Below, in pieces: positions 15,006 through 26,401 of a DNA stretch of 53,230 bases. The position numbers and the translations under genes were made by a program. The notes under the pieces were generated by a model. It was not told where the DNA came from, did not search any database, and saw only the letters and a program-made list of their open reading frames with translations. Origin of the DNA: Pseudomonadota bacterium (GTDB taxonomy: Bacteria > Pseudomonadota > Alphaproteobacteria > Acetobacterales > Acetobacteraceae); NCBI GenBank assembly GCA_018240405.1, contig JAFEFW010000004.1, positions 1-53,230 of the forward strand, given 5' to 3'. The stretch's first letter is position 1, and every line of letters begins with the position of its first letter.

Positions 15006-16637
15006 CTACTCGATCGCCTCCGCCGACTTCGCAATCTCGCGCAGGGCAAACTTCTGGATCTTGCCCGTCGACGTCTTCGGAATCTCCCGGAAGATGAACG
15101 TCTTCGGCACCTTGAACCGAGCCAGATGTTCACGACAGTAGTCGCGGAGTTCCTCGGCGGTGGCGGAGGCGCCCGGCTTCAGTTCAATGAACGCACACGG
15201 TGTCTCACCCCATTTCTCGTCGGGCTGCGCCACCACAGCGGCGTTCATCACCGCCGGGTGCGAATACAGCGCGTCCTCGACTTCGATGGACGAAATATTC
15301 TCGCCGCCAGAGATGATGATGTCCTTGGATCGATCGCGAATCTTCGCGTAGCCGTCCGGATACATCACCGCCAGATCGCCGGTGTGGAACCAGCCGCCTT
15401 CGAACGCCTTTGCCGTCGCGGTCGGATTCTTCAGATAGCCCTTCATGGTGATGTTGCCGCGGAACATGATCTCGCCCATGGTTTCAGCGTCCCACGGCAC
15501 CGGCTGCATCGTATCGGGATCCAGCACGGTCATCGCATCCTGCAGCGGCGTCCGCACGCCCTGCCGGCCATTGCGTTCGGCACGCTTCTCCACCGGCATA
15601 TGCGCCCACTCCTCGTGCTTCGCGCAGACGCTGGCCGGGCCATAGACTTCGGTCAGGCCATATACATGGGTCAGTTCGATGCCCATCTGCTCCGCCCCCT
15701 CGATCACCGCGAGCGGCGGAGCGGCGCCGGCGATCTGGCCGTAGATCTTATGGCTGATGCCGGCGCGCTGTTCCGCCGGCGCGTTGATCAGCATGGCGTA
15801 GACGATCGGCGCACCACACATATGGGTCACCGCATGATCGCGAATCGCATCCAGAATGGCCTTGGCCTCGACGCGGCGCAGGCAGACATTGATGCCGGCG
15901 CGCTCCGCCACGCTCCAGGGATAGCACCATCCGTTGCAATGAAATAACGGCAGCGTCCACAGATAGGTGGCGTGGTGCGGCATGCCCCAATTCAGGATGT
16001 TGCTGACCGCGTTCAGGTAGGCACCACGATGGTGCGTCACCACGCCCTTCGGATCACCGGTCGTGCCCGACGTGTAGCTCAGCGCGATGGCGTTCCACTC
16101 GTCGTCCGGCGGCTGCCATGCGTATTCGGGATCACCCTCGGCCAGCAGCGCCTCGTAATCCAGTGCACCCAGGCTCTTGCCATCTGGCACCTCCGGGTCA
16201 TGGATGTCCACCACCAGCGGCTTCTGATCCAGCTCCGCCAGCGCCGCCTCAATTACCGGGGCAAACTCCCGGTCGGTCAGTAGCACCTTGGCGCCGCCGT
16301 GGCGCAGCATGAACGCCAGCACTGAGGCATCAAGCCGTGTGTTCAGCGTGTTCAGCACGGCCCCGCACATCGGCACGCCGAATGCCGCCTCGACCATGGC
16401 CGGCGTGTTCGGTGCCATGATCGCCACCACGTCGTTCTTGCCGACGCCGCGACGCGCCAGGGCGGACGCAAGCCGTCGCGTGCGGGTATAGGTTTCCGCC
16501 CAGGTGGCTCGGTAACTGCCGTAAATGATCGACAACCGCTTCGGGTAGACATAGGCCGCACGCTCGATGAAACTGATCGGCGTCAGCGCTGCATAGTTCG
16601 CCTGGTTCTTGGGCAGTTCGTCGAAGGGACTGGTCAT
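15006..16637 (-). CDS. AMP-forming acyl-CoA synthetase, DmdB/medium-chain type
   Basis: A 543-residue ANL-superfamily ligase that activates a carboxylic acid through an acyl-AMP to an acyl-CoA. Motifs: YTSGTTGDPKGVV (P-loop), HVYGLTEVYGP, GWFHTGDLAVMYPDG, RDRSKDIIISGGENI (hinge) and the catalytic lysine region PKTSTGKIQKF. The overall pattern (start with DELPKNQANYAALTP) is that of the group containing methylmercaptopropionate-CoA ligase DmdB and related fatty acyl ligases; specificity is open. GGAGG upstream supports the ATG at 16637. The gene follows the exporter operon on the same strand with a gap of about 70 bases but is not obviously part of it. Confidence 0.9.
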   Translation of the reverse strand: MTSPFDELPKNQANYAALTPISFIERAAYVYPKRLSIIYGSYRATWAETYTRTRRLASALARRGVGKNDVVAIMAPNTPAMVEAAFGVPMCGAVLNTLNTRLDASVLAFMLRHGGAKVLLTDREFAPVIEAALAELDQKPLVVDIHDPEVPDGKSLGALDYEALLAEGDPEYAWQPPDDEWNAIALSYTSGTTGDPKGVVTHHRGAYLNAVSNILNWGMPHHATYLWTLPLFHCNGWCYPWSVAERAGINVCLRRVEAKAILDAIRDHAVTHMCGAPIVYAMLINAPAEQRAGISHKIYGQIAGAAPPLAVIEGAEQMGIELTHVYGLTEVYGPASVCAKHEEWAHMPVEKRAERNGRQGVRTPLQDAMTVLDPDTMQPVPWDAETMGEIMFRGNITMKGYLKNPTATAKAFEGGWFHTGDLAVMYPDGYAKIRDRSKDIIISGGENISSIEVEDALYSHPAVMNAAVVAQPDEKWGETPCAFIELKPGASATAEELRDYCREHLARFKVPKTFIFREIPKTSTGKIQKFALREIAKSAEAIE

Positions 16638-16709
16638 GGCGCGCCTCCGGGCCGGATCCGAATACAGGCGGCTTATGACATTTCGGCTCTGGCGCGCCAA
16701 GGCGAAGCT

Positions 16710-18833
16710 TCAGTCCGGCGCCGACGCTGCTTCCCGCGCCGGCACCGGCGCCGTCTGGCCAATATGCAGCACGGCGTCGGCGCCGCTCATCATCTCCGGC
16801 CGGTGCGCCACGCTGATGCGCGTAATGTCCAGCGCGCGCAGCCGCTCGTTGATCTCCTTCTCCTTCGCCACGTCCAGATGCGCGGTGCCTTCATCGAGGA
16901 ACAGGATGCGCGGCTGCTTGTACAGCGCGCGCGCCAGCAGCACGCGCTGCTTCTGCCCGCCGGACAGCGAACTCCCCATATCGCCGACCAGGCTGTTGTA
17001 GCCCATCGGCATCGACATCACGTCATCATGCACGCCAGCCACCTGCGCGCAGGCAATAACCCGTTCAAGCTCAAAATTCGGGTCATAGAAACTGATATTC
17101 TCGGCGATCGAGCCGGACAGCAACTGATCCTCCTGCATCACCGCGCCGATCTGCTCGCGGTAGACCCGCACGCCGATCGTCTGCAATGGCACGCCATCGA
17201 CCAGCACCTCGCCGCTCGTCGGTTCCAGCAAGCCCAGCATGATCTTCAGCAACGTCGTCTTGCCCCCGCCGGACGGACCCATGATCGTCACGAATGATCC
17301 GGCGGCGATCTTCAGGTTCACATTCTCCAGCACGAAGCGCTCGGTCTCGGCGTAGCGGAAGCTGACGTTGCGGAGTTCCAGTTCGCCAACGATCGGCGCC
17401 TGCACCTGCAGCGGCCGGTCGTGTCCGGACTCCGGCGCGCTAAGAGCGATGTCGGCAATGCGCTCCAGGTGCAGATCCAGCAGGCGGAAGTCGAGCGCCT
17501 TCTCGACCAGGGTGGCAGCCTTCTCTGTGAAGCTCATCTTGTAGGCCATGAAGGCGAAGATCATCCCGACAGTCATCTTGTTATCCAGCGCCAGGTTGGC
17601 GGCCAGGTAGACCGTGATGATGTTCTCGAACCCGAAGATGGCCTTGTTCATCGTGGTGAAGTGAATCGAGAACCGACCCTTGCGGATACTGGCGTTGACG
17701 GTGTCGGCGTGGCGGTTGAACCACTGACTCTCGCGATCGGTTTCGCGGTTGAACAGCTTGATGCTCTGGATCGCCCGCGCGGTCTCAATGAAGTTCGTGT
17801 TTTCGACCGCCTGGGCGCGGATATACGCTTCATTCAGGTCACGGAAGCGGCGGTAGGTCAGCAGGCGAAGCACGACGTACAGCATCAGCGCACAAAGCAC
17901 GACCGCTGCGAGCGTCAGGCTGTAGAGGCAGATCATTGCCAGCGTCGCCAGCGCCATCATGCCGTCGATGACCGCCAGCACCAGGCCCTCTGCCAGCAGA
18001 TTCCGGATCGGCTCAACCGACTGGAAGCGCGACAGCACGTCGCCGATGTGGCGCTTCTCGAAATAGCTCAGCGGCAGCCGCACGAGGTGGTGGAACAGCC
18101 GTGCGCCCATGTGGAAATGCACGGCATTCTGCACCACAAGCGCAATGTGGGATCGCAGCGCGTAGGTGCCCGTGTTGATCGCCGCCAGCAAGCCGAAGCC
18201 GAGAGCGAGAGTCATCATAAGGCTTTCGTCGCCGCGGGCGATGACCTCATCGACCGTCAGCTGCATGTAGAACGGGGCCGCAACGATCAGCAGTTCGAGA
18301 ATGGCCGACAGGATGAAGATCTGCGTCAGCGGCCCGCTCATGCCGCTCAGGTGGCCCCAGAACGCGCGCAGTGGCAGCTGGGCCCGCTCGTTCTTCTGCT
18401 CGAAGCTGGAACTGGGTGACAGTTCCAACGCGACACCGGTCAGGTGGCGCGACGCCTCGGCCAGCGGATAGGTGCGCACGCCAACGGCCGGATCGTGGAT
18501 CAGTACGCCGCGGCTGGTGACGGATTTCAGCACGACGAAATGATTCATGTCCCAGTGGACGACCGCCGGCAGAGTCAGCAGTTTGATGTCGTGCAGTTCA
18601 AAGCGCAGCGGGCGGCACGCCAGGTGCATCTGGTTAGCTACCTGGATCAGGCCGCGCATCGTCACGCCGTTCAGCGACACCGGGTAGCGCCGGCGCAACG
18701 TGTTAAGGTCGATGCGGTGCCCGTGGTAGGACGCAACCATGGCCAGACAGGCCAGGCCGCATTCGGCCGCCTCGGTCTGCAGAATGCTGGGGAGGCGCGC
18801 CCGCCCACCGATATCGAGCAGGTCCTGGATCAT
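16710..18833 (-). CDS. Peptidase-containing (C39) ABC exporter for double-glycine peptides
   Basis: A 707-residue fusion of three parts. Residues 1-140 are a C39 bacteriocin-processing peptidase: Gln19 and Cys25 in QTEAAECGLAC, His98 in WDMNHFV, Asp114 in IHDPAVG, all catalytic positions intact. Residues 165-440 are the six-helix exporter domain. Residues 480-700 are the ATPase: GPSGGGKT (519-526), LSGGQ (623-627), FLDE (645-648) and His677. The protein would cut leaders after GG on the cytoplasmic side and export the rest. The usual family length is about 700. It starts inside the HlyD stop (ATGA overlap), and four GG-leader genes lie upstream in the same direction, so substrates are encoded in cis. 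Confidence 0.95.
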   Translation of the reverse strand: MIQDLLDIGGRARLPSILQTEAAECGLACLAMVASYHGHRIDLNTLRRRYPVSLNGVTMRGLIQVANQMHLACRPLRFELHDIKLLTLPAVVHWDMNHFVVLKSVTSRGVLIHDPAVGVRTYPLAEASRHLTGVALELSPSSSFEQKNERAQLPLRAFWGHLSGMSGPLTQIFILSAILELLIVAAPFYMQLTVDEVIARGDESLMMTLALGFGLLAAINTGTYALRSHIALVVQNAVHFHMGARLFHHLVRLPLSYFEKRHIGDVLSRFQSVEPIRNLLAEGLVLAVIDGMMALATLAMICLYSLTLAAVVLCALMLYVVLRLLTYRRFRDLNEAYIRAQAVENTNFIETARAIQSIKLFNRETDRESQWFNRHADTVNASIRKGRFSIHFTTMNKAIFGFENIITVYLAANLALDNKMTVGMIFAFMAYKMSFTEKAATLVEKALDFRLLDLHLERIADIALSAPESGHDRPLQVQAPIVGELELRNVSFRYAETERFVLENVNLKIAAGSFVTIMGPSGGGKTTLLKIMLGLLEPTSGEVLVDGVPLQTIGVRVYREQIGAVMQEDQLLSGSIAENISFYDPNFELERVIACAQVAGVHDDVMSMPMGYNSLVGDMGSSLSGGQKQRVLLARALYKQPRILFLDEGTAHLDVAKEKEINERLRALDITRISVAHRPEMMSGADAVLHIGQTAPVPAREAASAPD

Positions 18834-20203
18834 CGGTCGATCCTCAGATGCCGGAGCGGCGATACGATCCAGTCGATCAAAGTCCGTTTCTCCAGCAGTA
18901 TATCAGCACGCAGCGACATGTCGGCGCGCAGCGGCACAATCCGCCCGTTGGCCGTGATGTCCGGACGCTCCAGCGCCACCGTGGCGGCGTAGGCTGGTTC
19001 CCGCAGTGTCACCGGACCATCGGTGTCAGACGGCAGCAGCACTGTTTGCGACAACGACGTGATCCGGCCGCGATAGGTGCCAAAGCGCTGATAGGGAAAC
19101 GCGTCGAACAACAGCCGCACATCCTGGCCGGTCTCGACAAAGCCTATCGCCCGGACGGGGATGAATAACCTCGCCTGCAGCGGCGAGTCAGGCGGCACGA
19201 TCTCCAGTTGTACCCGCTTGGGATCGACAATCTGGCCAACGCCCGCCTGCAGCAGCGCAACGCGCCCTGCTACCGGTGCCCTGACAATGTATGCGGCACG
19301 CCCGCCGGTCTCGGCGATCCGTTGCTCCGTCGTGGCGAGTTCATTGCGCAATGCCTGGATCCGGTCGCCCTGCGCGAACGGAAGCTGGGCGAGATTGAAC
19401 TTCACCTCCGATAACTGGCCTTCGCGCGTGGTCGTCTGCTGCATCAGGTTCAGCAGCGCCTGTTGCTGTTCCAGCAACTGCTCTTGGCGCCGGTTCTGGT
19501 CGAGTTCGGACACCAGGCCGCGGCCGCGGAGTAGCGCTCCCGTCTCGACAGCCTTCTCCAGGATTGCAATGCGCAGTTTCTGCGTCGCGGCCTGGGCCTG
19601 CAGGTCCCGCAGTACCTGCTGGTGCTCCTGCATCTGCGCCGTCAGCCGCGCCCGCTCCGACTCGGTGCGACGCACCTCATCGGCGATCTTGCGGGTCAGG
19701 GCGGTGCGCTGCTGCTCCAGGTTGGCAAGGATGGTGGCGTGGACATTGTCCCCGCTGCCGGCGAACTGGGCGGTGGCCACGCTCAATAACGGCTGGCCAG
19801 CCTGCACATCCTCTCCCTGGCGCACGTAAACTGCGCTGATCGTACCGACCTGGGTGGCGAAGATGCGCGCCGACCCGCTGAGTGGGGCCAGGTAGCCCTG
19901 GGCAACTTCCTTACGCGCGTACTGGGCGACGAACAGAAAGACGATGACGCCCGAGGCAACGGCGGCGGTGAACCAGACCATCATCCGCATCGGCAGGGGC
20001 TGCAGCGGGACGACCCGGCCCCACTGCCGGTTCTGCTGCTGGAATGCCAGCACCTCGGGCCGGAACAGCGTGGCGCGGGCCGCGGGTGCCGGTGGCGCGG
20101 CCAACGGCGCGGCGGCGGCCGGCGTGGTTGCTACACTGCCGGCCGTTCCGCCATGGCGTGTCAACGGCGAGCCAGTCTTGCCCGGCATGTCTGACGGTTC
20201 CAT
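18830..20203 (-). CDS. HlyD/CvaA-type membrane fusion protein of the peptide exporter
   Basis: A 457-residue periplasmic adaptor. An Ala/Pro-rich cytoplasmic N-terminus of about 70 residues leads into a single membrane helix (VWFTAAVASGVIVFLFVAQY, about 76-95). A half-lipoyl segment (SARIFATQVGTISAVYVRQGEDVQAG) follows, then a long coiled coil (about 155-290) and the second half with VRAPVAGRVALLQAGVGQIV. Such proteins bridge an inner-membrane ABC exporter to an outer-membrane TolC channel; no tolC gene is in the window. ATG 20203 or the in-frame ATG at 20188 may be the start; neither has a strong ribosome site. It is coupled to the exporter gene downstream. Confidence 0.93.
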   Translation of the reverse strand: MEPSDMPGKTGSPLTRHGGTAGSVATTPAAAAPLAAPPAPAARATLFRPEVLAFQQQNRQWGRVVPLQPLPMRMMVWFTAAVASGVIVFLFVAQYARKEVAQGYLAPLSGSARIFATQVGTISAVYVRQGEDVQAGQPLLSVATAQFAGSGDNVHATILANLEQQRTALTRKIADEVRRTESERARLTAQMQEHQQVLRDLQAQAATQKLRIAILEKAVETGALLRGRGLVSELDQNRRQEQLLEQQQALLNLMQQTTTREGQLSEVKFNLAQLPFAQGDRIQALRNELATTEQRIAETGGRAAYIVRAPVAGRVALLQAGVGQIVDPKRVQLEIVPPDSPLQARLFIPVRAIGFVETGQDVRLLFDAFPYQRFGTYRGRITSLSQTVLLPSDTDGPVTLREPAYAATVALERPDITANGRIVPLRADMSLRADILLEKRTLIDWIVSPLRHLRIDR

Positions 20204-20355
20204 CGTTGTTGCGATTTGGCTGGACCTTCAACGGTGGCGGGCAGCCTGCGCAGGGTCACGGCGCCTGCAGGACAAGCGCGCGCCCGGTTTGGGCGGCACG
20301 CTCGCCAGCTCCGCTAGGCGCCCGCGGGAAGCCTCTCCAGCGGGACCGTTCGTCG

Positions 20356-20559
20356 CTACTGGTGTAACGAGACGCCCTGGATGATCCACTGGCTGACGTT
20401 CGACGTCAGAACCGCAATGTTGTTGGCAATTTGCGTCGGAACAGCCAGGTTGATGTTGACCAGATTGCTCAGGTTGAGGCTGAGACCTCCGCCCCCGGTC
20501 ACCAGATCAAGTTCAGCGCCGGACAGTTCGGCGATGCCATGAGCAACGAGCTCATTCAT
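20356..20559 (-). CDS. Double-glycine leader peptide A
   Basis: A 67-residue precursor. The leader ends ELSGAELDLVTGG at residues 22-23, the cleavage signal of C39 exporters. The predicted mature part is 44 residues, with no Asp, Glu, Lys, Arg or Cys and only one His; it begins with two more glycines and is rich in Asn, Leu, Ile and Val (SNLVNINLAVPTQIANNIAV, then SNVSQWIIQG). GGGGAG lies nine bases upstream of the ATG. It is the last of four such genes and lies 152 bases before the HlyD gene. A secreted antimicrobial or a structural peptide are both possible; no known bacteriocin is recognised. Confidence 0.85.
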   Translation of the reverse strand: MNELVAHGIAELSGAELDLVTGGGGLSLNLSNLVNINLAVPTQIANNIAVLTSNVSQWIIQGVSLHQ

Positions 20560-20758
20560 GTCATTTTCTCCCCTAGAAGCGGTCTGCTTATGATCCCGGC
20601 TGCCGGAACTGTATGGCGGTTCCGGCAGCCGGATCTGTCATGGCGTCGCGGCCGGGCTGTCCCGGCCATCCGTTGCGGCATGCCCGGTCAGGAGCATGCC
20701 GCCGGCAATACCGTGCCGGATCCGCGGCTGGCGCCGACGGGCGACAGTTTGGTGCCGT

Positions 20759-20950
20759 TCAGGACTGCGCGATGTTCGAGCTCTGGCTGACGTTCTGCAC
20801 GGTCAGAATGGTCACGAGCCCGACATTCGCACCGGACTGGTTGCTCTGCGCCGTGTTGAACTTGATGCCAGTGAACAACGACCCGGAGAGGGCGAGGCCG
20901 CCCGTCACCTGGTCAAGCTCGACATCATTGAGCTGGGTCAACGTCTGCAT
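20759..20950 (-). CDS. Double-glycine leader peptide B
   Basis: A 63-residue precursor with an 18-residue leader ending NDVELDQVTGG and a 45-residue mature part. The mature part holds a single charge (one Lys) and two spaced copies of a Q-x6-N-(V/I)-(G/A) unit, at Gln35-Gly44 and Gln52-Ala61. It ends SQSSNIAQS. The same length and gapless alignment with peptide C (44 of 63 residues identical by my count) show they are duplicates. GGGGAG eight bases before the ATG at 20950 decides against the in-frame ATG at 20965, which overlaps that site. Exported by the downstream C39 exporter (inference from leader and synteny). Confidence 0.87.
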   Translation of the reverse strand: MQTLTQLNDVELDQVTGGLALSGSLFTGIKFNTAQSNQSGANVGLVTILTVQNVSQSSNIAQS

Positions 20951-21035
20951 GATCTTACTCCCCATTTGATTTACTACATTGGTCCTGCTGCCGGGTTTGA
21001 CCGGCAGACCTGGCCGCAGGGCCGCCTCACGGCAA

Positions 21036-21227
21036 TCAGGACTGCGCGATATTGGCGCTCTGGCTGACGTTCTGCACCGTCGCGAAAGTCAGAAGACCCA
21101 CATTCGCGGCGCTCTGGTTCGTCTGCGCGGTGTTTACCTTGAAGAAGGTAAAGCCGGACAACGAGATGGCAGCGCCCCCCGTTACCTGGTCGAGGTCGGA
21201 ATCAACCAGCACTGACAGTGTCGACAT
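21036..21227 (-). CDS. Double-glycine leader peptide C
   Basis: A 63-residue precursor with leader end VDSDLDQVTGG and a 45-residue mature part carrying one Lys and no other charge. It shares the Q-x6-N-(V/I)-(G/A) units of peptide B at the same positions and ends SQSANIAQS. Its middle is more aromatic (SGFTFFKVN). GGGAGTAACGAA precedes the ATG at 21227; a longer in-frame opening to 21359 lacks leader character. The gap to peptide B is 85 bases. Function as for B; the two could act together as two-component peptides or as subunits of one fibre (inference). Confidence 0.87.
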   Translation of the reverse strand: MSTLSVLVDSDLDQVTGGAAISLSGFTFFKVNTAQTNQSAANVGLLTFATVQNVSQSANIAQS

Positions 21228-21371
21228 TTCGTTACTCCCATGATTAGACCGAGAAGTTTGACTGCGCCACCAACAGTTCGTCTTGATCGAGCTGAGGTTG
21301 ACGGACGTTGGCAAAGTTCTTCTTGCCGCGGCCGCCAGGACCATGACATCCGCTACCAAGTACCGTCAAAT

Positions 21372-21377
21372 ATTATA
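21372..21377 (-). promoter_or_regulatory. Possible internal -10 element (TATAAT) before peptide C
   Basis: A perfect TATAAT is present on the minus strand in an AT-rich part of the 311-base gap between peptides D and C. No convincing -35 lies 17 bases upstream, so this is weak. It could allow peptides C, B and A to be expressed separately from D. Confidence 0.3.
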
Positions 21378-21415
21378 TCCTGTTCTCGCCGCACATGCCA
21401 GTGAACATTTTTATA

Positions 21416-21433
21416 CTTCGACTTCATTCGAAG
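21416..21433. repeat. Small inverted repeat in the gap between peptides D and C
   Basis: CTTCG (21416-21420) and CGAAG (21429-21433) flank eight bases in the AT-rich spacer upstream of the possible internal promoter. It could be a regulator site or a weak hairpin. Nothing else that I can identify lies in the 311-base gap 21228-21538. Confidence 0.35.
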
Positions 21434-21538
21434 AGACGCCAATGCGCTTACGTTATGGAATACCTGCAGGCGCGCCGTGATGGTGCGTCGAAGTGCAACC
21501 TGCGACCCCCGCCCGTCGGCACGCCTGCCTGGTTCGCT

Positions 21539-21823
21539 CTAGCGCCAGCGGCCTCGCCCGCCCGCAAGCGCCTGGAAACCACCGAAGCCGCGCATTCCGC
21601 CTCCGGCTGCGTTGGTGTTGATGGCAAGGATCACCGGGCCGTTGCCGGTGGCGATGATCTCACCAATTGAGACGGATACGATGTTGATAACGGTGTTGGC
21701 AGACGTGCTGGTCATGCCGCCGTGGCGTCCGCCCGACACTGCGTCGATCTCGGTTTCGCTCAGTATTGAGAGGCTGCTTTCGCAAGACAACGCGATAGCT
21801 GGTCGTTCTTCTGTTGTCACCAT
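21539..21823 (-). CDS. Double-glycine leader peptide D (Gly/Arg-rich end)
   Basis: A 94-residue precursor, first in the operon. Its leader is longer (32 residues) and ends LSETEIDAVSGG, still the C39 consensus. The mature part of 62 residues is unlike peptides A-C: it begins RHGGM, has a hydrophobic middle (NTVINIVSVSIGEIIA, then GPVILAINTN), and ends in a glycine- and arginine-rich tail (GGRGRWR). The in-frame ATG at 21832 touches GAGGGAA, so I prefer the ATG at 21823. Its basic tail could bind nucleic acid, membrane or surface polymer. The opposite-strand reading has no family features. Confidence 0.8.
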   Translation of the reverse strand: MVTTEERPAIALSCESSLSILSETEIDAVSGGRHGGMTSTSANTVINIVSVSIGEIIATGNGPVILAINTNAAGGGMRGFGGFQALAGGRGRWR

Positions 21824-22074
21824 AGTGCGCATTTCCCTCGTACGGGTGCGTACCGGCCGGCATTACGCGCGCGAAGCGCAGCAGCCGGGCCAGACACGAC
21901 TGTGGCTATTGGAATCCATTGAACGGTGAAGCCTTGTCGGGCGCCACCGGAGACGGGACGCGCCGGGATGATCTGGACACCGCTCTTGAACAATCTCGTG
22001 AACAAACCTAGGGCGGCTGATATATGATCATTCTCTCCCCCTTTATCGCTGATTGAGCCGAACAGGCTTTGTCT

Positions 22075-22533: not shown

Positions 22534-22950
22534 ATGGGGTTAACGGACGGCGTTTATCAGTTCGCATCAACGGACGATGTTCTGACGATCTCCGGCGCCT
22601 ATCTCAGACTGGACGAAGAACGCCTGCGCATTGAGCGCCGCCTGACGGCCCTGCCCGAGCGCGCTCCGGCACGGGATGAGGCTTGGCAGGAATTGGAGGT
22701 CATCCTGAAGCAGCTGGCGGGACTGCTCGCAAAGTTGGCGGCGCTTCCATCCCTGTCGGCTGAACAGATGAAAGCCAAGGCGGAGGTCCTTGGACGGGCG
22801 CTACGCCCGGCGATTGCGGATCCGTCAGTTGCTACAGCAGACATGCTGAAGCTTGCGAGGGCGCTTGCGCACGAGGTTGCCACTTCACCCGGGCTCCCGG
22901 TCGCTGCGCAGGAGCAGCGTGGCAAACAGCTGAGACAGGCCGAAAACTAG
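22534..22950 (+). CDS. Hypothetical all-helical protein next to the peptide locus
   Basis: A 138-residue soluble protein with no cysteine and no membrane helix. Most of it looks alpha-helical with heptad-like leucines (LRLDEERLRIERRLTAL; ELEVILKQLAGLLAKLAAL; DMLKLARALAHEV), which suggests a helical bundle or coiled coil. AAGGAGAGAGC immediately before the ATG is a strong ribosome site, so it is probably a real gene. Its 3' end overlaps the convergent ArsR gene by 66 bases. It is divergent from the peptide operon. I do not recognise the family; it lacks the membrane helices expected of most bacteriocin immunity proteins. Confidence 0.6.
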   Translation: MGLTDGVYQFASTDDVLTISGAYLRLDEERLRIERRLTALPERAPARDEAWQELEVILKQLAGLLAKLAALPSLSAEQMKAKAEVLGRALRPAIADPSVATADMLKLARALAHEVATSPGLPVAAQEQRGKQLRQAEN

Positions 22951-23274
22951 GTCCGGATTGACGGAATAGATAATATGCCGGCTGGATCGCCGTTGAACCA
23001 GGATACCGGCCTGTGTCATCAGGCGCAGGTGAAATGACAGGCTGGATGGAACGATCGCCATACGAGCCGCGATGGTGCCGGCAGGCATGCCCGCGGCGCC
23101 GTATGGCAGGAGGAGGCGCCACAGATTGAGCCTGGCTTGGTGACCCAGCGCCGTCAATACGGCAACAATCTGGGTATCGTCGAGCATCAGATCCGCCGCG
23201 CGGCTCGCCATATAATTGGCTTCTTCGTGACGAACCACATGCATGTCGATGGGTAGGCCGGCTTGTGCATTCAT
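22885..23274 (-). CDS. ArsR-family winged-helix transcriptional regulator
   Basis: A 129-residue regulator. The winged helix-turn-helix is visible in LTALGHQARLNLWRLLL, followed by MPAGTIAARMAIVPSSLSFHLRLM (recognition helix) and the wing GILVQRRSSRHIIYSVN. The LDDTQIVAVL lead is usual for the group that includes redox- or metal-sensing members, but no cysteine metal motif is present in the visible sequence. A run of G followed by AAA precedes the ATG at 23274. The 3' end overlaps the convergent helical-protein gene by 66 bases. It could control the peptide locus or its own operon; no target site is identified. Confidence 0.85.
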   Translation of the reverse strand: MNAQAGLPIDMHVVRHEEANYMASRAADLMLDDTQIVAVLTALGHQARLNLWRLLLPYGAAGMPAGTIAARMAIVPSSLSFHLRLMTQAGILVQRRSSRHIIYSVNPDLVFGLSQLFATLLLRSDREPG

Positions 23275-23440
23275 TTCCCCCCCGGGACGCCGCTGCACGA
23301 CTGGAGCAAAGATGGCCACTGTGCCGCGATCTCAGTCACAGCATGACCAATTCATTATATTGCTGATCTGCCGATATCATATGGCAGATAAGGGATGTTC
23401 ATCGAAATCACATACCCGAGAGACAGCAACCTAATGCAGT

Positions 23441-23522: not shown

Positions 23523-24803
23523 CTAACTGCCGTAGACCCACTGAGGCAGCCACATGGTCAGCGGCGGAAAGTATGTGATGATACCAAGAACGATTACCAG
23601 CAGGATCAGAAATGGAAGGATCCCGCGGATGACTTCGCCGATCGGCGCATCCGAAATGGTCGACAGCACGTACAGATTCAGTCCAACCGGGGGATGCACC
23701 AGGGCAATCTCCAGGTTGTGCGTGAAGATGATGGAGAAATGCACCGGATCCACACCTAGTGGTTGCAGCGCGGGCGCAAGTATTGGAATCGTCAACAAGA
23801 GGGCCGCCACCACCTCCAGGAAACACCCGAGGATCAGCAGCAGGATGTTGATTGATAGCAGGAACATCCAGGTGGACATGTGATGGTCCAGTGTCCACTG
23901 CACCAGCTTGGCTGGCACACCCGACTCCGTCATCCAGTGACCGAACGCAAGCGCGGTGGCGACAATCAGCATGATCGTGCCGGCGCTGCGCAGCGCGTCG
24001 GCAATGACAGACAGCGTCTGCGTGATGTGGAACCCGCGGTAGAATACCAGGCTGACAACCAGCGACACCACGGCCGCGAGCGCCGCGGCCTCGGTGACCG
24101 TGACGATGCCGCCGTAAATGCCGACCAGCACGATGACCGGCACAGCCAGGGCCGGCAGCGCACGCACCGTGGCGTCCACGCGTTCCGTGAATGGCAGCGC
24201 CGGTTCGACCGGGAAGTTGCGCCGGCGGGCATCATACCAGACCCAGGCGAAGAACGCGCCCGCCTGTAACAATCCGGGCAGAATGCCGGCCAGAAACAGC
24301 CGTGGCACCGATTGCTCCGCGACAATGCCATACAGGATCAGTGCCAGTGATGGCGGGATGACAATGCCGATGGTGCCCGATGCCCCAATGACGCCCAGCG
24401 CGAAGGAGCGCGGATAGCCCTTTTCGATCATGGCCGGCAGCAGGATCGTGCCCATGGCTAGGGCAGTGGCAACCGAAGATCCGCAGATCGCGGCAAACAG
24501 TGTGCAGGCAACCACGGTCACGAGGCCTAAGGAGCCCCGAATGCCGCCCAGCCATGCGGCCGAGACGTCGACCAGCGCCTTGGCCACCCCGCCCTGCCGC
24601 ATGAACGCTGCCGCCATGACGAACAACGGCAGGGACATCAGCGTCGAGGAGTTCAGGTGATCGATGATCACCTGGGCAACGCCAATCAGCGGCTGCCCGG
24701 AGACCATATACAAGACGGCCGCACAGGCACCCAGCACCAGGAAGATCGGCATGCCCGCGGCCAGCAGGCCGAAGAACAGCAGAAGAAAAAGCGCGGTCCA
24801 CAT
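23523..24803 (-). CDS. dctM: TRAP transporter large permease subunit
   Basis: A 426-residue, highly hydrophobic protein with about 12 membrane helices, typical for the DctM/SiaM ion-coupled permease. Features include LFVMAAAFMRQGGVAKALVD near the N-terminus, CGSSVATALAMGTILLPAM, GASGTIGIVIPPSLALILYG and PVGLNLYVLSTISDAPIGEV at the end. It moves the substrate bound by the periplasmic DctP across the inner membrane using an ion gradient. The start is three bases from the dctQ stop. A terminator hairpin follows. The substrate is likely an organic acid, but sequence alone does not tell. Confidence 0.93.
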   Translation of the reverse strand: MWTALFLLLFFGLLAAGMPIFLVLGACAAVLYMVSGQPLIGVAQVIIDHLNSSTLMSLPLFVMAAAFMRQGGVAKALVDVSAAWLGGIRGSLGLVTVVACTLFAAICGSSVATALAMGTILLPAMIEKGYPRSFALGVIGASGTIGIVIPPSLALILYGIVAEQSVPRLFLAGILPGLLQAGAFFAWVWYDARRRNFPVEPALPFTERVDATVRALPALAVPVIVLVGIYGGIVTVTEAAALAAVVSLVVSLVFYRGFHITQTLSVIADALRSAGTIMLIVATALAFGHWMTESGVPAKLVQWTLDHHMSTWMFLLSINILLLILGCFLEVVAALLLTIPILAPALQPLGVDPVHFSIIFTHNLEIALVHPPVGLNLYVLSTISDAPIGEVIRGILPFLILLVIVLGIITYFPPLTMWLPQWVYGS

Positions 24804-24806
24804 GGC

Positions 24807-25367
24807 TCAGTGTTGTCCCTGAGTCGTCAGGTTGCCGGACACCTCGTGGTCCGGAGGCAGGTGATGCCCCACGGTCATGGTCCGGGGATCGAAGTGGAAC
24901 AGGTAGCGATACAGGCGGATGGCATAGCGCACCGTCATCAGCACGCCACCGGCCGGCAGCGCGGTGTAGTAGATCCACATCGGGAACTGCAGGTCGCTGG
25001 AACTGGTCTCGTCCAGCAGCCAGGAGGTATTCACGATCTCCCAGCCGTACCAGACCATCCCGACCGAGAATGCCAGCGCCACGATGCAATTAAAGGCCTC
25101 AAGCCAACGTTGACCAGCGGGAGGCACAAGGCGCAGCACCAGATCAGGCCGCACATGCCCATCGGTGCGGACCAATTGGCTGGAGATGATCATCACGCCC
25201 CAAATGATCAGGTAGACGATTACCTCCTCCGCCCAGGAAATCGCGTATCTTGGAAACAGATACCGACCGACCACCTGAAGCAGGCCGACAGCCATGGCGA
25301 CGGCGCCCAGGATGCCGACCAGCGTACGCTCGATCGTGTCCCAGATCGTATCGTGGCGCTGGCTCAC
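24807..25367 (-). CDS. dctQ: TRAP transporter small permease subunit
   Basis: A 186-residue protein with four predicted membrane helices (GILGAVAMAVGLLQVVGRY; AEEVIVYLIIWGVMIIS; CIVALAFSVGMVWYGWEIV; YYTALPAGGVLMTVRYAI), the DctQ pattern including the conserved WAEE in ISWAEEVIVYL. It partners the large subunit in the membrane. It lies between dctP and dctM with gaps of two and three bases, so all three are co-transcribed and probably co-translated. Confidence 0.92.
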   Translation of the reverse strand: MSQRHDTIWDTIERTLVGILGAVAMAVGLLQVVGRYLFPRYAISWAEEVIVYLIIWGVMIISSQLVRTDGHVRPDLVLRLVPPAGQRWLEAFNCIVALAFSVGMVWYGWEIVNTSWLLDETSSSDLQFPMWIYYTALPAGGVLMTVRYAIRLYRYLFHFDPRTMTVGHHLPPDHEVSGNLTTQGQH

Positions 25368-25369
25368 GA

Positions 25370-26401
25370 TCAGGACGTTCCGTTCGCCGAAGCTTCGGCC
25401 AGCTTGACGATCTCAGGCGATAGCTTGGCCGCGCTGATCAATGCGGCGACATCCGCCTGCATCGCCTTGCGCGCCGCATCCAACGTCGCTTCGGATGGAT
25501 CGCTGAACTGCACGCCGTTGTCGGCCAGCAGTTTGCGCGCCCGTTCCTGCGACGCCAGCGCGTTCGCGCGGTAGACTGGGATGTTCTGCGCCCACAGGTC
25601 CAACATCATCTTCTGCAGGTCAGGTGTCAGCTTCGCCCAAAACGCCTCGGTGATCAGCGGCATGTACTGTCCGACATACTGATGATCCTGGTATGAATAC
25701 TTTACGCCCGCTTCCCACAGCTTCGCCGTCGCCACGCTCTCATTGGTGGAGACGAAGCCGTCGAATGTGCCTTGCGACAGCGCCAGCGGCACGTTCGGCC
25801 ATGCGGTCGTGTTGGGGATGCCGCCGAAGAACGATATGCGCCAGGAAATGCCGGCGCCGCCCGGGCTGCGAATCTTCAGGCCCTTCAGATCCTCAGCCGT
25901 GTTGATCGCTTTCTTGGTCGTGTACCAGTTCTGAAAGCCCAGATCGACCCACGGACCGAGCACGCGGACTTTCAGCTTGGTTTCGATCTGCTTGTTGACC
26001 AGCGCGCCGGGTTTGCCGTCGGTCGCCGCATGCGTCGTTGCCATCGGACGGCCGTAGAATGCGGGCAACTGGCAGAAATCGCCGTCGGGGACGATGCCGG
26101 TCTGCGTCCAGGTGCCGGGGCAAGCCATTTCGATCTGGCCCTGCAGCAGGGCCTTCGCCACGTTCAGGTCGGCGAACAACTGCCCGGCGTGGAACAGCTC
26201 GGGGGCGATCTTGCCACCGGAGGCCTTCTCGACCTTGCCAAGGTAGTCCGCGATGGAGACGTTACGGATGTGCGACGGAGCGGTATCGAGGGAGCAGCGA
26301 AGCTTCAGGGCGTCTTCACCGCGTGCGTGCCGGAGGATAGCAAACGAGCCAAGCGCGGCGGCAGAGGCGCCGAACGCTCTGCGGGTTATGCGTGCCTGCA
26401 T
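25370..26401 (-). CDS. dctP: TRAP transporter solute-binding protein
   Basis: A 343-residue periplasmic binding protein. The N-terminus ITRRAFGASAAALGSFAIL has a twin-arginine-like signal. The mature part starts near EDALKLRCSLD, with family features GGKIAPELFHAGQLF, AEDLKGLKIRSPGG (the conserved Arg that binds a carboxylate) and ALSQGTFDGFVSTNE. It captures the substrate and delivers it to DctQM. It is first in the operon and is divergent from the zinc alcohol dehydrogenase gene at 26571, which may process the imported compound (inference from context). Confidence 0.92.
   Translation of the reverse strand: MQARITRRAFGASAAALGSFAILRHARGEDALKLRCSLDTAPSHIRNVSIADYLGKVEKASGGKIAPELFHAGQLFADLNVAKALLQGQIEMACPGTWTQTGIVPDGDFCQLPAFYGRPMATTHAATDGKPGALVNKQIETKLKVRVLGPWVDLGFQNWYTTKKAINTAEDLKGLKIRSPGGAGISWRISFFGGIPNTTAWPNVPLALSQGTFDGFVSTNESVATAKLWEAGVKYSYQDHQYVGQYMPLITEAFWAKLTPDLQKMMLDLWAQNIPVYRANALASQERARKLLADNGVQFSDPSEATLDAARKAMQADVAALISAAKLSPEIVKLAEASANGTS

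Follow-up and report, generated by a model that had tools for sequence, protein, structure and literature searches.

Small peptides with a double-glycine (GG) leader that are encoded beside C39 peptidase-containing ATP-binding cassette (ABC) exporters are an already known kind and, according to the part of the report cited here, have been mined in cyanobacteria (PMC3140520). The EbfG1-4 peptides of Synechococcus elongatus are encoded by a four-gene GG operon with the C39 exporter PteB and enable biofilm formation; PteB is needed for efficient EbfG secretion and, as far as the cited sections go, the mature peptides have no known domains and no homology to proteins of other cyanobacteria (PMC4997328). 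EbfG1-3 form amyloid, and EbfG4 is located on the surface and in the matrix, as the relevant sections of a second report describe (PMC9981879). In Caulobacter crescentus, CdzC and CdzD aggregate on the cell surface as a contact-dependent bacteriocin, and the cdz cluster also encodes CdzI, which resides in the inner membrane, in the portion of the account drawn on here (PMC5380434). The present analysis concerns a locus on a stretch of 53,230 nucleotides (the window; contig JAFEFW010000004.1) from a Rhodopila-like bacterium of the Acetobacteraceae, in which four GG precursors, P1 to P4, lie in a row with a HlyD adaptor and a C39 exporter, the gene order of the EbfG type. We tentatively favour, at slightly less than even chances, the reading that P1-P4 are C39-processed structural peptides of the cell surface or matrix that would work like EbfG1-4.

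All genes of the locus were observed directly on the minus strand, at the positions given in the preliminary description. P1 (21539..21823; an alternative upstream ATG at 21832 is possible) carries a leader ending in LSETEIDAVSGG and a mature part beginning with RHGGMTST, and P2 (21036..21227) has the leader MSTLSVLVDSDLDQVTGG and a mature part running from AAISLSG to NIAQS. They are followed by P3 (20759..20950; leader MQTLTQLNDVELDQVTGG, mature part LALSGSL to NIAQS) and P4 (20356..20559; leader ending in LSGAELDLVTGG, mature part GGLSLNL to SLHQ). The preliminary description had seen in these four small genes a common leader end, (E/D)(L/I)DxV(T/S)GG, leading into a HlyD adaptor and an exporter with an intact C39 protease, and both observations were borne out. 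The leader ends are EIDAVSGG, DLDQVTGG, ELDQVTGG and ELDLVTGG in P1 to P4, respectively, and all four precursors have a GG leader with the acidic/hydrophobic pattern. The pattern L....[LI]D.V[STA][GA]G, composed after the leaders had been inspected, matched four times in the six frames of the window, always in P1-P4; 100 third-order Markov sequences averaged 0.03 matches, with no more than 1 in any of them. The list of open reading frames (ORFs) started P2 at 21359 and P3 at 20965; the ATGs at 21227 and 20950 stand directly 3' of GGGAG-type sites. P2 and P3 share 70% identity, with non-synonymous (Ka) and synonymous (Ks) substitution values of 0.262 and 0.846 over 63 codons (Ka/Ks ~0.31); both therefore look like selected genes and, judged from these values, are paralogues under purifying selection.

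The adaptor gene (18830..20203) was assigned by alignment and by a match to Pfam HlyD_3 above the cut-off (9.3e-17), and the exporter gene (16710..18833) by alignment and by Peptidase_C39 (4.7e-33), ABC_membrane and ABC_tran, all above the Pfam cut-offs. Gln19, Cys25, His98 and Asp114 were invariant in an alignment of three close exporters, the window's included. Residues 17-688 matched the solved chain 4ry2, an 'ABC-type bacteriocin transporter', and ComA was among the solved relatives; the NHLP bacteriocin exporter model NHLM_micro_ABC1 gave 467.5 bits, short of its cut-off of 853.3. The outer-membrane channel family OEP (PF02321) had 14 matches, spread over seven other sites of the genome; none could be paired with the locus. 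Because the exporter and adaptor families are well established, C39 cleavage and export of P1-P4 can be predicted from them.

The nearest named loci, as judged by the adaptor, came from metagenome-assembled genomes (MAGs) labelled Rhodopila or Acetobacteraceae, followed by Belnapia, Paracraurococcus and Roseomonas, and further ones from one MAG labelled Sphingomonas and one labelled Rhodospirillales (10 loci confirmed among 80 pattern matches). Within the genus, a C39 match was found in 10 of 34 genomes and was close (at least 85% identity over the C39 piece) in four, namely the window's own, G002, G015 and G025; across the family, 21 of the 398 genomes sampled, the window's own among them, had the adaptor at E < 1e-70. 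The exporter belongs to a patchy, mainly acetobacteraceal clade. The preliminary description had proposed looking for homologues beside C39 exporters. Seventeen loci had a HlyD of at least 50% identity and more than 400 bp of upstream sequence (L076, with 0 bp, and L083, with 3 bp, were excluded), and 16 of them, the window included, carried one to four precursors with GG, GA or AG ends 5' of HlyD; the lone precursor-free locus, L041, had 489 bp upstream. When 27 loci were scanned with a leader pattern that had been widened after a narrower version overlooked precursors in L036, L038, L069 and others, at least one precursor was found in 19 and none in eight (L041, L076, L079, L081, L083, L084, L085 and L028). 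The leaders of the clade are alike (LTDAELDAVxGG and variants, GA and AG ends included). The mature parts, by eye, are Gly/Asn-rich, rich in asparagine and glutamine (N/Q-rich; window P2-P4, G015, G025, G074 and G164) or of a few other kinds, with His-rich cargo in L080 and Lys/Pro-rich cargo in L067. In G164, four precursors stand in tandem, and their contig appears, by eye, to break off where the adaptor begins; 5' of them lies a gene that resembles a response regulator and has what looks, again by eye, like a LuxR-type end (L122:2361-3221, minus strand). In G020, a genome of the same genus as the window's, three other GG precursors, one of them very Met/Gly-rich, precede a more distant C39 exporter (L030:2382-3343). 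Plasmids and viral contigs, searched with P3 only, gave no match.

None of the four precursors reached a curated cut-off in Pfam or NCBIfam, in agreement with the earlier impression that the mature peptides belong to no recognised family. Under the cut-offs, P3 aligned with PF10439 (E 0.0067) and P4 with the CTB family bacteriocin model NF038167 (E 0.0016); against the 32-bit cut-off of the latter, P3 scored 15.1 and P4 18.6 bits, whereas the model did not pick up P1 or P2 with E values of up to 1. Ten of 11 N/Q-type precursors, a set with the window's three included, were matched by NF038167 with E values of up to 1, the best being 3.3e-5. S. elongatus, the EbfG host, which was among the control genomes, gave no match. 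P1 is 38% identical over 56 aa to its counterpart in G015 (L015:8147-8392), and a mature-only model of P2-P4 recognised both G015 peptides, with 0 of 1000 shuffles as good in each case. In a phylum-wide sample of 397 genomes besides the window's own, six gave a match; each match was weak (E 7e-4 to 0.007) and came from a genome that is not of the family. An earlier alignment had three invariant mature positions, and an earlier profile search found five G164 precursors at E 4e-19 to 5e-15, neither of which is relied on here; an earlier mature-only model scored three G164 peptides at 30-43 bits against 9.1 for the best shuffle. The G164 matches are not cross-genus evidence, since G164 is congeneric with G074, the source of three of the eight training rows. 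A deep family of N/Q peptides across genera was considered and rejected on the failure of the cross-genus mature-only test, for which the values are given below.

The composition of the mature peptides, 44-62 residues in length, was compared with 595 overlapping segments from 19 long window ORFs taken as coding. N and Q together made up 22-25% of P2-P4 against a background mean of 5.8%, a level reached by 0.3% of the segments, and N+Q+S+T+G made up 47-58% of P1-P4, reached by none of the 595. Charged residues accounted for 0-2% of P2-P4. Most of the 23 mature peptides examined across the loci were compositionally far from background (N+Q+S+T+G was ordinary in one, from L077), and none of them contained Cys, which occurs once in an L067 precursor outside that set. 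GxxxG was counted 1, 0, 1 and 0 times in P1 to P4, short of an extended glycine zipper. Helix periodicity gave no signal in P1-P4, and an internal two-fold repeat tried for P2-P4 was unsupported (P 0.22-0.49). Composition alone does not decide the role, because microcins are likewise Gly-rich and mostly neutral or anionic, in the part of the source cited (PMC10233263).

In six sister loci, a large, Gly-rich repeat protein that contains NxGxIxFGDVTGG-like units is encoded 5' of HlyD (L038:2-1783, L039:2775-4691, L040:1542-3713, L043:2508-4655, L034:3-1652, and in L069). A search with its C-terminal part found it in eight of 17 chosen genomes (G002, G093, G241, G258, G263, G315, G323 and G327), 5' of HlyD in six, just past the exporter in G323 and ~17 kb off in G327, with open frames of 549-792 aa, some of them cut by contig ends. 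All eight had Gly/Asn-rich precursors (by eye); the nine genomes without it comprised five of the N/Q type and four of other kinds, among them G311, in which no precursor turned up, the peptide types having been sorted after the data were inspected. Seven small peptides from four loci were also compared, by score, with five large proteins. For six of the seven, the large protein of their own locus gave the highest score, with own z values of 4.4-10.9 (60 shuffles); large proteins of other loci also scored, with z up to 11.9, all of these sequences being low-complexity. AlphaFold modelled the last 229 residues as repeated strands, with a predicted local distance difference test (pLDDT) of 82.3 and a predicted template modelling score (pTM) of 0.81 (five sequences; 35 residues below 50), and this C-terminal part is predicted to form a beta-solenoid. 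Pfam had nothing for three members of the protein, even with E values of up to 5 admitted, and the solenoid and peptide profiles gave no convincing match among PDB sequences.

In the mechanism that we favour, the cytosolic C39 domain of the exporter would cut each precursor after the GG leader, and the ABC domains would drive the mature peptides out by way of the HlyD adaptor and then of an outer-membrane channel whose gene lies elsewhere. Once outside, the almost uncharged, N/Q/S/T-rich P2-P4 and P1 would assemble into material of the cell surface or matrix, with P2, P3 and P4 as alternative subunits of one structure and the more basic P1 as a distinct partner. This extracellular assembly and structural role, which we infer, are preferred because of the locus linkage, the N/Q-rich composition, the repeats of the large protein and their solenoid model, the absence of a recurrent membrane-type immunity gene in the 16 loci scanned and the EbfG precedent. 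Since the sister peptides resemble the repeats of a solenoid-modelled protein, structural cargo fits better than a bacteriocin. We further consider it possible, with distinctly less confidence, that an Acetobacteraceae clade of C39/HlyD exporters builds a surface or matrix fabric from swappable GG-leader subunits, minimal versions of the repeats of a large Gly-rich solenoid with a nearby gene in some genomes and an N/Q-rich substitute, such as window P2-P4, in others.

Several results weigh against a structural role. P1 is not N/Q-rich (10%), is 10% charged and has a net charge of +4. AlphaFold gave mature P3 a low-confidence helix and no strands (pLDDT 67.8, pTM 0.28), and strand periodicity in P1-P4 was no better than in shuffles (z -0.3 to 1.3). 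The Fap repeat motif was not enriched (P 0.91), and the curlin motif was weakly enriched over 14 peptides (P 0.013; one peptide at 0 of 1000) and in none of P2-P4 (P 0.39-0.72). No copy of the large Gly-rich protein turned up in the window genome, in a search that can be taken to work because the same run matched eight genomes, and P2 and P3 showed no resemblance to its repeats. The mature-only model of P2-P4 did not recognise the eight N/Q peptides of another genus (at best, 14 of 1000 shuffles did as well), and the converse model missed P2 and P3 (249 and 184 of 1000), with weak recognition of P4 (38 of 1000) and of the two G015 peptides (9 and 12 of 1000). Homology of mature parts is therefore claimed, on sequence comparison, for window P2-P4 with p2 and p3 of G015, a Rhodopila relative, and for no other genome. 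Finally, the distribution is patchy, and cargo turnover is fast while the exporter is 82% identical, as would be expected of antagonistic peptides too.

A membrane-type immunity gene was sought among same-strand ORFs of 40-250 aa with a hydrophobic stretch, up to 2.6 kb 5' of HlyD or 1.5 kb past the exporter, a scan blind to soluble, unlinked or opposite-strand genes. By eye, none recurred in 16 loci, the window included; little upstream DNA was available in several of them (L042, 471 bp; L078, 727 bp; L067, 1145 bp). None of the window's 17 same-strand ORFs near the operon was membrane-protein-like, leaving no candidate among them for a linked membrane immunity protein of the Cdz type; the preliminary description had likewise remarked that no immunity gene was evident. 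Hydrophobic-stretch ORFs occurred in only four of the 16 loci: single ones in L035 and L074, three Ala-rich ORFs overlapping Gly-rich coding sequence in L043, and the precursor itself in L077. A laxer scan of the window (hydropathy 1.5, both strands) passed three of 34 ORFs, P1 and two opposite-strand ones over P4 and P1, and a few opposite-strand ORFs were seen when three loci were scanned on both strands in this way.

The locus had been likened at the outset to class II microcin or bacteriocin loci. GG precursors with their own exporter are indeed present; the bacteriocin identity is weakened by the lack of a recurrent membrane-type immunity gene in the 16 loci scanned, the almost uncharged N/Q/S/T-rich P2-P4 and the solenoid-repeat likeness, and also because GG leaders and C39 exporters serve biofilm peptides, some of them amyloid, as the cited parts of the EbfG1-4 reports describe (PMC4997328, PMC9981879). 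The main rival is nevertheless a bacteriocin or surface-bound contact-dependent toxin like CdzC/CdzD, in which the peptides would form aggregates on the producing cell that kill adjacent cells, with an immunity gene that is unlinked, soluble, unrecognised or unneeded. The parts are as in Cdz (small secreted proteins and a type I exporter), several cargos are served by one exporter, and the weak matches to bacteriocin models, the patchy distribution and the fast cargo turnover beside a conserved exporter would all fit; the cdz cluster, however, includes CdzI in the cited account (PMC5380434), which contrasts with the 16 loci scanned here, and there is no glycine zipper, the window precursors score under the curated cut-offs, and the cargos of sister loci look like the repeats of the large solenoid-like protein. 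We regard such a toxin as unlikely, albeit the least unlikely of the alternatives; it may overlap with the structural reading, because the Cdz toxin also aggregates.

Two further explanations seem improbable to us. Signal peptides, too, can have GG leaders and leave through C39 exporters, and the leader-free peptides might be pheromones or allelopathic cues sensed by kin. The presence of ComA among the solved exporter relatives, a helix-turn-helix (HTH) gene near the locus (22885-23319) and the response-regulator-like gene 5' of the G164 precursors would suit this idea, but signals do not usually come as a set of four long and partly redundant peptides rich in N/Q, and the HTH gene and its partner are present in G005 and G021, which both lack an exporter match, and on another contig in G025. 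Equally remote, in our estimate, is that a general exporter carries ordinary low-complexity secreted peptides that have no common function and drift. The great diversity of cargo types, His-rich and Lys/Pro-rich ones included, would be explained in this way, but not readily the purifying selection on P2/P3, the composition of most of the mature peptides or the keeping of the leaders with small variants.

Several features surround the locus. A promoter-like site 5' of P2 (CTGGCA-18-TATAAT; 21372..21401, minus strand) is weak evidence, with two such sites found in the region against 1.3 expected. An AMP-binding gene of the acyl-CoA ligase type (15006-16700, minus strand) starts at most 10 bases from the exporter stop; it is probably unrelated to the locus, because other ORFs occupy that place in G015. 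The HTH gene is ArsR-like and lies on the minus strand, in a tail-to-tail overlap with a small ORF on the plus strand (22534-22950), and relatives of the two adjoin each other in G015, G025, G021 and G005. The pair looks like an independent module; its candidacy as a regulator was dropped, and it is not counted as part of the locus, because it is found also without the exporter. Genes for the tripartite ATP-independent periplasmic (TRAP) transporter components DctM, DctQ and DctP follow at 23523-26401 (minus strand).

What seems to be new is a clade with exchangeable cargo and the likeness of small GG peptides to a solenoid-like repeat protein; among the papers listed by literature searches, none described an Acetobacteraceae system of this kind. 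If the clade reading were true, it would mean a peptide-built extracellular structure in alphaproteobacteria, with a conserved pump and a rapidly replaced fabric, and the likeness between small peptides and solenoid repeats would offer a concrete, testable route to the origin of such fabrics. GG-leader peptides beside C39 exporters are often annotated as bacteriocins; should the secreted peptides of this clade be structural, annotations of that sort, in proteobacteria and cyanobacteria alike, may have to be revisited.

Among the known systems, Pseudomonas Fap also uses a C39 peptidase, and N/Q-rich repeats, according to the sections of the Fap report cited (PMC5557850); FapD, however, is a periplasmic peptidase, the outer-membrane pore is another one, and the window peptides are not enriched in the Fap motif. 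The FapA chaperone model matched one of 11 N/Q precursors at 0.01, which was taken as chance. With class II microcins the locus has in common the GG leader, the peptidase-containing ABC transporter (PCAT) and the membrane fusion protein (MFP) named in the cited part of PMC10233263, but no immunity gene was seen at the window and the precursors stayed below every bacteriocin-model cut-off. The CTB family model gave weak alignments, with scores under its cut-off, that cover the leader and some of the mature region in P3 and P4. CdzC and CdzD are likewise small, type-I-secreted and alphaproteobacterial, in the account cited above, and differ in that the window peptides lack a glycine zipper and no linked CdzI-like gene was seen. 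EbfG/PteB, in the sections cited, likewise combines four small GG precursors, with mature parts of no known domain, and a C39 ABC exporter; it is cyanobacterial, and the window locus is likened to it by layout and working, not by sequence relation.

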